Source: Burkholderiales bacterium UBA6064
Lineage (GTDB): Bacteria > Pseudomonadota > Gammaproteobacteria > Burkholderiales > Burkholderiaceae_B
Reading direction: 5' to 3'
Assembly (NCBI GenBank): GCA_002428895.1
Contig: DIYC01000120.1
Location: 1 to 8,450 of the forward strand
Length of the DNA stretch: 8,450 bases
Shown: positions 1,358 to 4,322 of the stretch, piece by piece
Position numbering within the stretch: the stretch's first letter is position 1
Layout: every line of letters begins with the position of its first letter
The notes under the pieces: generated by a model
Database searches by the model: none
The model's input: only the letters and a program-made list of their open reading frames with translations
What the model was told of the DNA's origin: nothing
Made by a program: the position numbers and the translations under genes

Positions 1358-1448
1358 TCGGAGTTGTTTATAAAGAGGGTTGAAAGGATAGAAAATTGCT
1401 TATTGAACAAATCTTTTGATTTTTTAGAGTTTTTGATCTAATCGTTTA

Positions 1449-1485
1449 CCCCCCTTTGGCAGGGCATTATTTTTGCCAAGGGGGG
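1449..1485 (-). terminator. Strong hairpin downstream of the hfaB-like gene
   Basis: CCCCCCTTTGGCA (1449-1461) pairs with TGCCAAGGGGGG (1474-1485), giving a 12-bp stem with one bulged T and a 12-base loop. It starts 46 bases past the hfaB-like stop codon. No T tract follows on the minus strand, so it may be an imperfect terminator or a 3'-end stabilising structure. Its position fits the end of the three-gene hfa-like operon. Confidence 0.6.
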
Positions 1486-1531
1486 AAACAAAGATCACAA
1501 AAAATAATACAAAGAATTCAACCAAATTTTA

Positions 1532-2860
1532 TTAACGGATAATTGGTTTAGTTCCCCATAATAGTTTTTCCTTCATTTCTTCTTTGCGCGATTGATTGTT
1601 TGAATTATTTTCACCAGTTAGTCTTTCATCCATAAAACCGGTTAACTCGGTACGTTCCAAAGAAGCGTTAAGGTTAGCAGGCTGTGATTGTTGCATTAAA
1701 TCTTCAGTGGTGCTGCGTGCATTGATTGATGAATTAGATTGATCTAATGTTACGGTTGAATTGCTTGATGGAATGTTGCCACCGCTCAGTGTTTTGCCTG
1801 AGTTAGCATCGCCACCAATTAAGCCTAAAACCTGAGCTGCTTGTGCCTCATCAAATTGCGGTTGAATTAACGCAAGATCTTCGTTGCTGGTTACAGTTTG
1901 ATTGCTTTTAACTGTGGTTGCAGCAGGTTTTGCTTGGCGTGGCTCAGGAGCGTATCGTGAGGGGAGTACTGGTGAATTAGGGCTGTTGTTGGGCGCAGCA
2001 TTCGGCGCTTGTTGATTAACGTGATGTTTAATCTGGTTGCGACCTGCGTCTTGGCAGTTGTTTACACTTAAACCATAAAATTCGTTGAGCATGTTAAATA
2101 CTGCTTGTTCAATGACCATGCGAATACCACGTTGAATAGGTTCTTGCGTTCTTTCGCTTGCAGCAATATCAACTACGCCATCAGAGAATACTCGGAAAAA
2201 ACCACCAGAAAGTTCAGTGCCAATAATTTGCTTTTGCAAAGATTGTACATTCACTACTTCTAAGGTTTTCGTGTTCACTAATCGTAGGTCAACTGCAACA
2301 TTCATCACAAAATAGCGTGCACCTAATCCGAGAAATTGAATGGAAGAATCAACACTGCCACTGCGAATGTTGTAGTTGACTTCGGTAACACCGCCCACGA
2401 CATGGTAGTCTGAACCGGCTAAAGTGCCGGACATAATTTTTCGATAGTCATGAGTTTCAAGATCATCTGTAATTAATTTATTGTCAGCATATTTCAGTTC
2501 AATGTCTGCAATCGATGTATCGAAGCGTTCAACAAGTGGAACTCCTGCACGGTTTAGCGCTGAAATTACCATGAGCGAAGCACCCTGGGTAATGCGTTTA
2601 CCGTTTGTTAAATCTTCTTTACCGGTAAAATCACTGACACGACCGACAGAAAAACGTTGATCACGATACTTACTTTGTACTAAAGATTGCCTTAAGCATT
2701 CTAATGATTGGCTGTATCGTGTGTGATTGTCGGTTACATTTGCGCCATCTAGTGCATCAACGTATTGGTCTTCAGAAAGAGAGGGCAGTGTGGTACAACC
2801 CACGGATAATAAGGCTGCAAGTATGGGTAAAAGTACGCGCATTGGGTTTAGGTAAGTCAT
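1532..2860 (-). CDS. hfaB: CsgG/HfaB-family outer-membrane secretion lipoprotein with a long low-complexity C-terminal tail
   Basis: CsgG-family proteins form a ring-shaped outer-membrane pore that exports unfolded amyloid-type subunits. HfaB is the Caulobacter member that secretes and stabilises the holdfast anchors HfaA and HfaD. The signal peptide ends in LSVGC with Cys22 as the lipidation site; Ser at -3 is a weaker lipobox. Residues about 55-264 form the CsgG domain: FSVGRVSDFTGK (70-81), ITQGASLMVISAL (90-102), PLVERFD (108-114), GLGARYF (178-184), VAVDLRLVNTKTLEVV (188-203), GGFFRVF (219-225) and ERTQEPIQRGIRMVIEQAV (236-254). The wording of these blocks is closer to HfaB than to E. 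coli CsgG. C55 and C269 flank the domain and could pair. Residues 270-442 form a Pro/Gln/Asn/Ser-rich tail absent from E. coli CsgG (277 residues). GAGGA (2868-2872) lies 7 bases ahead of the ATG. It is the third gene of the operon, 36 bp after the hfaA-like gene. Confidence 0.85.
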   Translation of the reverse strand: MTYLNPMRVLLPILAALLSVGCTTLPSLSEDQYVDALDGANVTDNHTRYSQSLECLRQSLVQSKYRDQRFSVGRVSDFTGKEDLTNGKRITQGASLMVISALNRAGVPLVERFDTSIADIELKYADNKLITDDLETHDYRKIMSGTLAGSDYHVVGGVTEVNYNIRSGSVDSSIQFLGLGARYFVMNVAVDLRLVNTKTLEVVNVQSLQKQIIGTELSGGFFRVFSDGVVDIAASERTQEPIQRGIRMVIEQAVFNMLNEFYGLSVNNCQDAGRNQIKHHVNQQAPNAAPNNSPNSPVLPSRYAPEPRQAKPAATTVKSNQTVTSNEDLALIQPQFDEAQAAQVLGLIGGDANSGKTLSGGNIPSSNSTVTLDQSNSSINARSTTEDLMQQSQPANLNASLERTELTGFMDERLTGENNSNNQSRKEEMKEKLLWGTKPIIR

Positions 2861-2896
2861 GCTGATGTCCTCGGATGCAAAGCTTGGTATCGGTTC

Positions 2897-3226
2897 TTAA
2901 TTTAAGGTGATTCGTTGTGATCCACTGTTTTGTTGATCAGCGTGTATGATCGTCGTGTTGTTGTTTCCTTCGGTAACCACATTAATTAAGTTACCAATTG
3001 CTGATGCTGAAACATTAAATCGGTCAGGAGTATTAATCATTGTTCGGTTAAACTGCTCATCACGAACTCGGTCTGTTGGTGAGTCAATCTCTTGGACACT
3101 GTTCATTCCTATTGGGGTTTCAAATCGGTTGGCGCCACTTTCAAATGTTTGCGCAGACACGCCAAAGGAAGATAAACACAATACTGTATAAATGCTCGAA
3201 AGAGTAATAAATTTAAAAGCTTTCAT
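2897..3226 (-). CDS. hfaA: HfaA-like secreted curlin-type protein
   Basis: This 109-residue protein is probably exported to the cell surface by the adjacent CsgG-type pore and may assemble as an amyloid-like anchor or fibre. A Sec signal peptide covers residues 1-25 (likely cut at VSA|QT). The mature protein has a polar N-terminal half (26-70) and a C-terminal curlin-like part: SASAIGNLINVV (73-84), then GNNNTTIIHADQQNSG (87-102), a pattern of Asn, Gly and Gln between alternating hydrophobic residues, as in CsgA/CsgB repeats and in Caulobacter HfaA. There are at most two such strands-plus-turn units, so it is more like a nucleator or cap than a long fibre subunit. The only ribosome-binding candidate, AGGA, ends 2 bases before the ATG, which is unusually close and may lower translation. 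The HfaA label rests on motif resemblance plus position next to an HfaB-like gene. Confidence 0.7.
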   Translation of the reverse strand: MKAFKFITLSSIYTVLCLSSFGVSAQTFESGANRFETPIGMNSVQEIDSPTDRVRDEQFNRTMINTPDRFNVSASAIGNLINVVTEGNNNTTIIHADQQNSGSQRITLN

Positions 3227-3338
3227 AATCCTAACACGCTCAACTTGTTATTCATTTAGGGTTTACTTGAGATGCCCTACAAGCCAACCATATAAAATAG
3301 GCTTGTAAGGCTTTAATTTTGATTAAATTAAATCAAAA
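3227..3338 (-). repeat. Paired hairpins between the hfaD-like and hfaA-like genes
   Basis: Two inverted repeats lie in and at the edge of this spacer. One, TAATTTTGATT (3314-3324) with AATCAAAATTA (3331-3341), is an 11-bp AT stem with a 6-base loop that includes the hfaD-like stop codon. The other, TACAAGCC (3278-3285) with GGCTTGTA (3300-3307), is an 8-bp stem with a 14-base loop. Neither is followed by a T tract on the minus strand. They could slow transcription or protect the upstream message end, changing the ratio of the subunits. No convincing promoter for the hfaA-like gene was seen. Confidence 0.5.
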
Positions 3339-4040
3339 TTATTCACTTGTTTTTTTTCCAATTGAGATGTTGTTACCAATTGCGCTGGTGTTTACAGTAA
3401 GGCTAAGTGGATCATGATAGAACTTGGTTGATGCAGTTACATCGCCTGTGTTACATTGCGCAATACCTAAATTAGACATTTTGTCGCTTAAACCTGCGAT
3501 AGAAATGGTATTAGCCACTGCGGTTGTTGTCAGTTCAACATTGCCAGTTTTTGAAAAAATTGACTGTTGAATTTCAGTGCTAGCAGTTACATCGCCAGAG
3601 TTATTTTGATACAAGTAGTTGACGTTAGAAACATCGCCTAGATCAAGTTCAACGCTAATATTGTTAGCAACGGCCATGGTCTCAACTTTAACATCGCCAT
3701 CGTTACGCATGAGTAGGTTATGAATTTTGGTTTGACCATGAATGTTACCGCTGTTCAATTGAACAAATTTACCGTGTGCTTCTGGATCGATGTTGACATT
3801 GACATTGACATCGGTATTGGCTGAACAACCTGGGCCGCTGCCACCATTTTCACAGCCACCTGGGGCTAGATTTTTGCCAAGCAATAAACCAGTGATTAAG
3901 CCAGCTGCAGCACCTACTACACCGCCTGCTGCCAATAGACCGGCACCAGCAGCAAGAAGAGCACTTGCATGTGACTGTGTAGGAACAGCAACCGAAGCAG
4001 TAATACCAGCTGCGATTAGAATTTGAGTAAGTTTTTTCAT
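3339..4040 (-). CDS. hfaD: HfaD-like secreted repeat protein, probable surface anchor or fibre subunit
   Basis: The 233-residue protein has a Sec signal peptide (residues 1-25, likely cut after SHA), then a Gly/Ala/Leu-rich hydrophobic segment (27-55) resembling a glycine zipper or membrane hairpin. A Gly/Pro-rich linker follows with two cysteines (C63, C72), then an alternating VNVNVNI stretch (78-84). The remainder is three imperfect repeats, at 94-131, 145-181 and 195-227. Each has the pattern NxGDVxAxTxI followed after a short gap by TxAVANxISI. This repeat style and the linkage to HfaA- and HfaB-like genes suggest HfaD, which in Caulobacter is an outer-membrane-associated holdfast anchor. 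The family call is a resemblance, not an alignment. It is the first gene of the operon on the minus strand, with AAAGGAG (4051-4057) 10 bases before the ATG. An alternative is a beta-solenoid adhesin unrelated to HfaD. Confidence 0.6.
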   Translation of the reverse strand: MKKLTQILIAAGITASVAVPTQSHASALLAAGAGLLAAGGVVGAAAGLITGLLLGKNLAPGGCENGGSGPGCSANTDVNVNVNIDPEAHGKFVQLNSGNIHGQTKIHNLLMRNDGDVKVETMAVANNISVELDLGDVSNVNYLYQNNSGDVTASTEIQQSIFSKTGNVELTTTAVANTISIAGLSDKMSNLGIAQCNTGDVTASTKFYHDPLSLTVNTSAIGNNISIGKKTSE

Positions 4041-4043
4041 ATT

Positions 4044-4057
4044 AAGGAGACTCCTTT
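4044..4057 (-). promoter_or_regulatory. Ribosome binding site inside a perfect inverted repeat ahead of the hfaD-like gene
   Basis: On the minus strand the strong site AAAGGAG is followed at once by TCTCCTT, so AAGGAG and CTCCTT form a perfect 6+1+6 palindrome (4044-4056). In RNA the site could fold on itself as AAGGA, loop GTC, TCCTT, which would hide it from ribosomes. In DNA it could equally be a protein-binding site. Confidence 0.5.
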
Positions 4058-4322
4058 GGGGTTAAACAAAATGCGTTAGCATTAAATCACATTTTCCTAC
4101 GTAAAAAAATGTTAAGTTTGCAAAAGAATTGCTTCATCTTGGTTACTTAAAATGGGTGTTTAGTTCCATCTTTTTGGTGAGTAATTCCGTTGTGAGGGAC
4201 AATTCATTCGTAATGGGCTTCTAAGTGGATAAATATTCTGAATTGGTTCCAAAGTAATTGATATTTGAATCGGGTGAGTCGAGGTAGAATAAAACCAGTT
4301 TTATTCTTGGATTTTAGGTATT
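4058..4322. other. Divergent spacer between the hfa-like operon and nadA
   Basis: No coding region was seen. The spacer must carry the promoters of both the hfa-like operon (minus) and nadAC (plus). I found no strong -35/-10 pair for the operon. Near nadA, TAGAAT (4285-4290) is a good -10 hexamer, but the nearest -35-like hexamers (TTGATA at 4258, TTGAAT at 4265) are 21 and 14 bases away, so the promoter may be activator-dependent. The 4286-4307 palindrome overlaps this hexamer. Confidence 0.5.
4286..4307. promoter_or_regulatory. Perfect 22-bp palindrome upstream of nadA, candidate operator
   Basis: AGAATAAAAC (4286-4295), a CA spacer and GTTTTATTCT (4298-4307) form a perfect 10+2+10 inverted repeat ending 15 bases before the nadA start. 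It overlaps a candidate -10 hexamer, TAGAAT (4285-4290), the placement expected of a repressor site. NAD synthesis genes are commonly repressed by NadR, NrtR, NiaR or NadQ in various bacteria. I do not recognise this sequence as the known site of any of them. Confidence 0.55.

Follow-up and report, generated by a model that had tools for sequence, protein, structure and literature searches.

The 8,450-nucleotide stretch analyzed here (contig DIYC01000120.1, hereafter the window) carries on its minus strand an operon of the Hfa type, in the order hfaD-hfaA-hfaB, that resembles the holdfast-anchor genes of Caulobacter. In the reading that we favor (probability about 0.55), HfaD and HfaA are exported by HfaB and form a predicted amyloid-like anchor at the cell surface. 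The operon consists of three intact open reading frames (ORFs), and their minus-strand layout sets the order of transcription as D-A-B. Judged from sequence, homology is strong for HfaB, good for HfaA and modest for HfaD. The genes, their lengths in amino acids (aa) and the parts of their products that enter the argument are these:

3339..4040, minus strand: hfaD-like gene (233 aa); a predicted signal peptide precedes three imperfect repeats, each of ~50 residues
2897..3226, minus strand: hfaA-like gene (109 aa); a single curlin-like unit close to the C-terminus
1532..2860, minus strand: hfaB-like gene (442 aa); CsgG-family outer-membrane secretion lipoprotein with conserved Cys22
2078..2659, minus strand: CsgG domain of HfaB (residues 68-261; Pfam)
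1535..2053, minus strand: HfaB C-terminus (residues 270-442), a long tail of low complexity that closes with a Limnobacter-type tag of the approximate form EKLLWGxxPxIR
3351..3767, minus strand: the three HfaD repeats (residues 92-140, 141-191 and 192-230), with the motifs QxNx[GS] and A[VI][AG]Nx[I]S in every one

The window's assembly (G000; 2.3 Mb, 85% complete) is placed together with 15 other genomes in Limnobacter, a genus of Betaproteobacteria in the order Burkholderiales, and contains one CsgG-family gene. All three products match the corresponding NCBIfam models, each below the curated cut-off: HfaB NF037935 at 3.3e-88 and 295.3 bits (cut-off 300; 296.9 bits in a six-frame search), HfaA NF037934 at 2.5e-9 and 37.6 bits (cut-off 50), and HfaD NF037936 at 1.7e-7 and 30.9 bits (cut-off 100). 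The equivalog cut-off for HfaB is reached by none of the 16 Limnobacter genomes (range 279.6-297.5 bits); that threshold governs naming and is no biological trait. Pfam CsgG scores above its own cut-off on the third gene, alone of the three. Within that family the window protein belongs with HfaB: a tree of 76 rows (26 of the 44 collected loci together with survey loci; 86 matched, of which four below 34 bits and six identical ones were dropped) separates 54 HfaB rows, the window among them, from 22 CsgG rows with support of 100/100. Identity is 46-47% to HfaB of Asticcacaulis and Caulobacter and, over their best segments, 24-28% to three CsgG-type proteins, and Cys22 is nearly invariant in an alignment of 22 of the 120 matches listed out of 1,514 found. 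The 16 Limnobacter rows and locus L064, from another Burkholderiales lineage, form a clade of their own (99/97), which stands beside the alphaproteobacterial clade with support of just 90/67, so that the exact sister relation is unsure. Recent transfer from Caulobacterales is rejected, Limnobacter and L064 being a separate clade.

Scores against the HfaB profile fall into two groups across 398 genomes of the phylum, at least 171 bits in 18 (the window's own genome and 17 from other classes) and at most 49.4 bits in the rest, with a gap between. A survey of 399 Burkholderiales genomes finds HfaB-grade scores only in G000 and G003, both Limnobacter, and a survey of 369 genomes of the class finds one only in G000. 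Further carriers are L064, a protein of a Herminiimonas metagenome-assembled genome (P0100) and the Pseudoxanthomonas locus L091; the HfaB family is rare here, not unique. The terminal tag of HfaB is present as a strict pattern in 64 of the 80 best matches and more loosely, by eye, in 13; three lack it. Caulobacterales HfaB tails end otherwise, in a TRxDPxRW...RY pattern, and the Limnobacter tag is possibly a docking tag. HfaB-like genes in Pseudoxanthomonas sp. Root630 (L091:4205-10333) and Sphingomonas yabuuchiae (L093:8001-9184) form a separate clade. Those of L091 have a small secreted ORF before them and an Asn-rich ORF of 454 aa after them; the ORFs directly before them look by eye like TrbF/TrbG/TrbI, which we take to be conjugation genes. 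A tblastn search of plasmids yields 42 records with relatives, which span Variovorax (58%) at one end and Loktanella and Vibrio alginolyticus (33-35%) at the other and include ordinary CsgG.

The HfaA model is matched by all 12 HfaA rows from Limnobacter and L064. Residues R55, G78, N79, Q98 and N100 are invariant across 52 rows, Caulobacterales included and reaching Phenylobacterium; these rows were hand-picked from 121 matches and the loci, and are hence selected for likeness. The window protein keeps the signature RD..N ... AIGNL..V...G..NT....A.Q.N.G, and its unit AIGNLINV...G.NNT....A.Q.N.G is spaced, by eye, like the curlin unit of the CsgA motif given in passages of PMC12822426. A newer Pfam family, PF27294, covers both the window HfaA and a Phenylobacterium HfaA in precomputed annotation; the scan of the Pfam library itself gives no match over cut-off to HfaA or HfaD, and no curlin repeat. 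The AlphaFold model of HfaA is of low confidence, and a search of PDB sequences with the HfaA profile returns no meaningful match.

HfaD is probably related to Caulobacterales HfaD, as a compact form with three repeats, through a link that is modest and weaker than those of its two partners. Two of 11 rows match the HfaD model at E ≤ 0.01, a weak match, and profile-profile comparison with alphaproteobacterial HfaD (hhalign) gives a probability of 78%. The three repeats are kept in all 11 relatives, and the predicted structure has a core of three beta-rich layers with the repeats as layers. A fold search with this model returns the functional amyloid FapC as its best solved match; the match is moderate, and the likeness to Fap and its three-layer Greek-key cross-beta fold is suggestive only. 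No PDB sequence matches the HfaD profile at E ≤ 10, the FapC chains included; the alphaproteobacterial HfaD profile finds two nucleoporins in the PDB sequences (E 0.55 and 1), nothing meaningful, and against a viral fold library the single match has no name and offers no clear lead. An Ala/Gly-rich, glycine-zipper-like hydrophobic stretch (window 3851-3962, approximately residues 27-63) lies between the signal peptide and the repeats of the window protein, and is absent from its relatives of 191-207 aa. A protein of 240 aa in a eukaryote set (P0170, eukprot source) combines PF27277, an HfaD-like family, with CsgG; it is probably bacterial contamination.

An earlier, sequence-only reading of the window had named the order hfaD-hfaA-hfaB and had called the CsgG-family gene most HfaB-like and the short curlin-like protein HfaA-like; all of this has held. 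Its assignment of the Asn/Gly repeat protein to HfaD stands weakly, at the level of the match of two rows and the 78% probability. That reading had named a grouping with CsgG and a lack of similarity to HfaA and HfaD as telling against it. The outcome is in its favor: a place in the HfaB clade, matches to HfaA and weak ones to HfaD. The low GC content that it remarked on is real (42.6% in the window vs 51.6-56.8% across nine Limnobacter loci), and the flanks that it took for beta- or gammaproteobacterial are indeed those of a betaproteobacterium.

The order D-A-B recurs, by profile scoring, in all 16 Limnobacter genomes and in 14 of 14 loci of a named collection (L050-L063; partly the same genomes), as well as in L064, where HfaD is weak (22 bits). 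Among the remaining 29 loci 22 are A-B-D; L085 has A-B followed by an HfaD that matches the Limnobacter-type profile, L066 has A-B on a short contig, and L065, L067, L091 and L093 show B alone. The profiles used for gene order were built partly from the scored loci (seven A-B-D loci, for example), which match by construction. The departure from A-B-D that had been read from the window is thus general in Limnobacter and not confined to it, since L064 and a Brevundimonas locus share D-A-B. The latter (L090:7016-9871, Brevundimonas subvibrioides isolate 32-68-21) is D-A-B-B; its two HfaB genes, in tandem and unlike each other, might form a mixed pore. In the window nadA-nadC is divergent from the hfa operon, with nadB convergent beyond; nadA-nadC-nadB adjoins the operon in nine loci, those among the Limnobacter genomes whose flanks were read. 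The recurrence of D-A-B in 16 of 16 genomes, with these neighbors in the nine loci read, takes the locus beyond chance. Across six loci of Limnobacter, the window excluded, with 15 pairwise comparisons for each gene, the ratio of nonsynonymous to synonymous substitution rates (dN/dS) spans 0.04-0.27 (HfaD), 0.04-0.16 (HfaA) and 0.04-0.10 (HfaB) among unsaturated pairs, dS being saturated in one HfaA pair and three HfaB pairs; all three genes are under purifying selection in these genomes. Chance ORFs are accordingly rejected, on conserved order, nad flanks and selection. In L064 (63-6335) hfaD-hfaA-hfaB also lies close to a NadA-like gene, with a separate ORF of 335 aa in between, and this arrangement suggests that the locus was inherited vertically. 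On the other, downstream flank of the window operon is a small, unrelated lipoprotein-like ORF (1229-651) that has no family in Pfam or NCBIfam.

Profiles of HfsC (the holdfast polymerase) and HfsB, each built from two Asticcacaulis sequences, match in none of the 16 Limnobacter genomes, nor in any of the 13 nearly complete ones, and do match two independent controls (HfsC/HfsB: Caulobacter, 413/193 bits; Brevundimonas, 203/233 bits); the HfsC profile also matches a Sphingomonas genome (G046) at 74 bits. The genome-wide absence concerns HfsB and HfsC only, HfsG, HfsH, HfsJ, HfsK, HfsL and HfaE not having been searched. The claim that holdfast polysaccharide genes are missing, first made for the window, therefore extends to whole genomes for these two; the companion claim about csgE and csgF does so outright, with no match to either profile in any of the 16 genomes and matches to both in the E. 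coli control. Profiles of HfsD, HfsA and HfsE were applied to ten polysaccharide-export loci only. The generic Hfs likeness found there reaches 81 bits for HfsD, 32 for HfsA, 17 for HfsB and 96 for HfsE; HfsC has no match in these loci. No genome of the 16 is without a polysaccharide export protein, and five have EpsE-like export frames of 279-298 aa, one of which tested as EpsE with an EpsG-like neighbor. The best HfsD-like protein tested, in L097, scores 292.6 bits as an EpsE equivalog, above the cut-off, and has an EpsG-like kinase adjoining, which identifies that locus as an Eps locus of the betaproteobacterial kind. In G000 the export gene encodes an export-SLBB protein of 780 aa and lies beside Wzz and YjbH genes (Gfc/YjbH-type). 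With HfsC in none of the genomes and an export protein in all, the anchor was inherited without a polymerase of the Caulobacter type, polysaccharides not lacking; with export loci that vary by species and hfa in 16 of 16, it was not inherited together with any one polysaccharide locus. Of a Caulobacter-type system, Limnobacter lacks the A-B-D gene order and also the accompanying Hfs machine, as far as HfsB and HfsC stand for it.

The composite picture is as follows. HfaB likely forms an outer-membrane lipoprotein pore, as its CsgG-type family would have it, and HfaD and HfaA are the likely cargo. The three Asn/Gln-rich repeats of HfaD would stack as three cross-beta layers and serve as base or nucleator, to which HfaA, a single curlin-like unit sharing the HfaD motif, would add as extender. 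Such a scheme is in keeping with Caulobacter, where, according to passages of PMC6707917, HfaA multimers depend on HfaD, and HfaA and HfaD both depend on HfaB. The least certain step is the last: the anchor may tether exopolysaccharide that an Eps- or Gfc/YjbH-type locus exports in place of the Caulobacter Hfs machine. Because the gene order differs and relatives of two Caulobacter glue genes go undetected, the anchor proteins likely form an amyloid-like structure that would hold a different glue or none. The operon would encode a distinct surface-fiber or attachment system, most likely an anchor for whatever exopolysaccharide each species makes, with a protein-only adhesin as the main rival.

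In that rival, HfaD and HfaA make a short amyloid-like fiber or pad that is itself sticky and dispenses with a polysaccharide partner. It is a minority possibility that deserves to be taken seriously: the HfsB and HfsC profiles find nothing in the 16 Limnobacter genomes while both controls match, the export loci differ between species (EpsE-like in five genomes, Gfc/YjbH-type in G000) and hfa does not, and HfaD is compact, with three repeats as in the commonest form of FapC. However, no genome lacks a polysaccharide export protein, the homologous Caulobacter system anchors polysaccharide (passages of PMC6707917), and the literature passages describe no fiber of HfaA and HfaD. A wider version of this idea, which we think rather unlikely, makes HfaB-HfaA-HfaD a free-standing, holdfast-independent functional amyloid, with a CsgG-class pore, a FapC-like three-layer base and a curlin-like extender, that was recruited in Caulobacterales to fasten polysaccharide; what Limnobacter has, whether kept or newly evolved, would be an attachment device of protein alone (or one for any polysaccharide).

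A true holdfast, polar and Caulobacter-like, in which the role of Hfa is unchanged and a diverged Hfs set has been missed by the profiles, is improbable. Wzy-type polymerases evolve fast, the window's genome is only 85% complete, and the export loci do hold generic relatives of HfsD, HfsA, HfsB and HfsE; but the nearly complete genomes lack HfsC and HfsB no less than the others, HfsC is without any match in the ten export loci, the best HfsD-like protein turns out to be an EpsE equivalog in an Eps locus, and in G000 the neighbors of the export gene are Wzz and YjbH genes. That the operon encodes ordinary curli, or a non-secretory CsgG-domain protein with unrelated neighbors, is scarcely credible. 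Pfam does call the third gene CsgG, and HfaA carries a unit that looks curlin-like by eye; the HfaB/CsgG split at 100/100, the gap from 171 down to 49.4 bits across the phylum, the absence of CsgE and CsgF and the lack of a Pfam curlin repeat all speak against it, and for ordinary curli the HfaB clade and the CsgE/CsgF result suffice for rejection.

The Limnobacter operon shares features with three known systems. With Hfa of Caulobacter and Asticcacaulis, for which passages of PMC6707917 report polar localization, HfaA multimers resistant to sodium dodecyl sulfate and holdfast shedding in mutants, it has in common three protein types, a one-strand operon, a single CsgG-family pore, HfaB of 46-47% identity and the HfaA signature. 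It differs in gene order (D-A-B vs A-B-D), in its own type of HfaB tail, in the want of HfsB and HfsC, and in the length of HfaD (233 aa in the window and 191-207 in ten relatives, vs 417-444 in six of seven alphaproteobacterial ORFs and 256 in L089). Curli (csgBAC/csgDEFG) likewise combine a CsgG-family pore with Asn/Gln-rich secreted partners bearing a curlin-like unit, but HfaB falls outside the CsgG clade, CsgE and CsgF are not found, and HfaD repeats are ~50 residues long whereas CsgA repeats are quoted in the literature passages as roughly 20. FapC of the Pseudomonas Fap system is like HfaD in that its imperfect repeats number three, conserve Asn/Gln and are predicted to make up one layer apiece (94.2% of FapC genes have three, by the passages at hand), and is its best, moderate fold match; it differs in that HfaD has no sequence match to PDB FapC chains and no long linkers between repeats, and in that FapC is secreted, by the same passages, through a different pore, FapF.

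The hfa genes of Limnobacter are not unknown, since databases already contain 'holdfast attachment protein HfaB [Limnobacter thiooxidans]' and 'holdfast attachment protein HfaA'; no account of a Limnobacter Hfa system was found in the openly licensed literature (searches on holdfast, CsgG and rosettes, and on HfaB in Betaproteobacteria). Which of HfaA, HfaB and HfaD touches the sugar is an open question in Caulobacter, from whose study the holdfast anchor is known (passages of PMC6707917), because there HfaABD and the Hfs polysaccharide always occur together. Limnobacter, with a whole anchor and no relative of HfsB or HfsC, separates the anchor and glue halves in nature, and therefore offers a direct test of whether Hfa proteins alone make an adhesive structure. 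A compact three-repeat HfaD would also lend itself readily to work on fibril structure, and could connect curli and Fap, functional-amyloid families with different pores.

Two noncoding features flank the operon:

4041..4322, unstranded: intergenic region separating hfaD from divergent nadA, recognized by its geometry and by conserved blocks in relatives
1434..1497, unstranded: strong hairpin downstream of hfaB (z -4.46; none of 200 shuffles equally stable)

The intergenic region likely holds a candidate promoter for the operon, although promoter- and terminator-like patterns in the window show no excess over shuffles. In most of 11 relatives (L021-L028, L059) the blocks TGAACTTT, GTYACTYA and GCATTT occur some 100 bases before the start of hfaD, and are possibly a candidate regulator site; the window's own copy is divergent. 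An Rfam search of the window gives no match. The hairpin is present in a single copy in G000, has no T-run behind it on the hfa strand, and may mark a putative transcript end.

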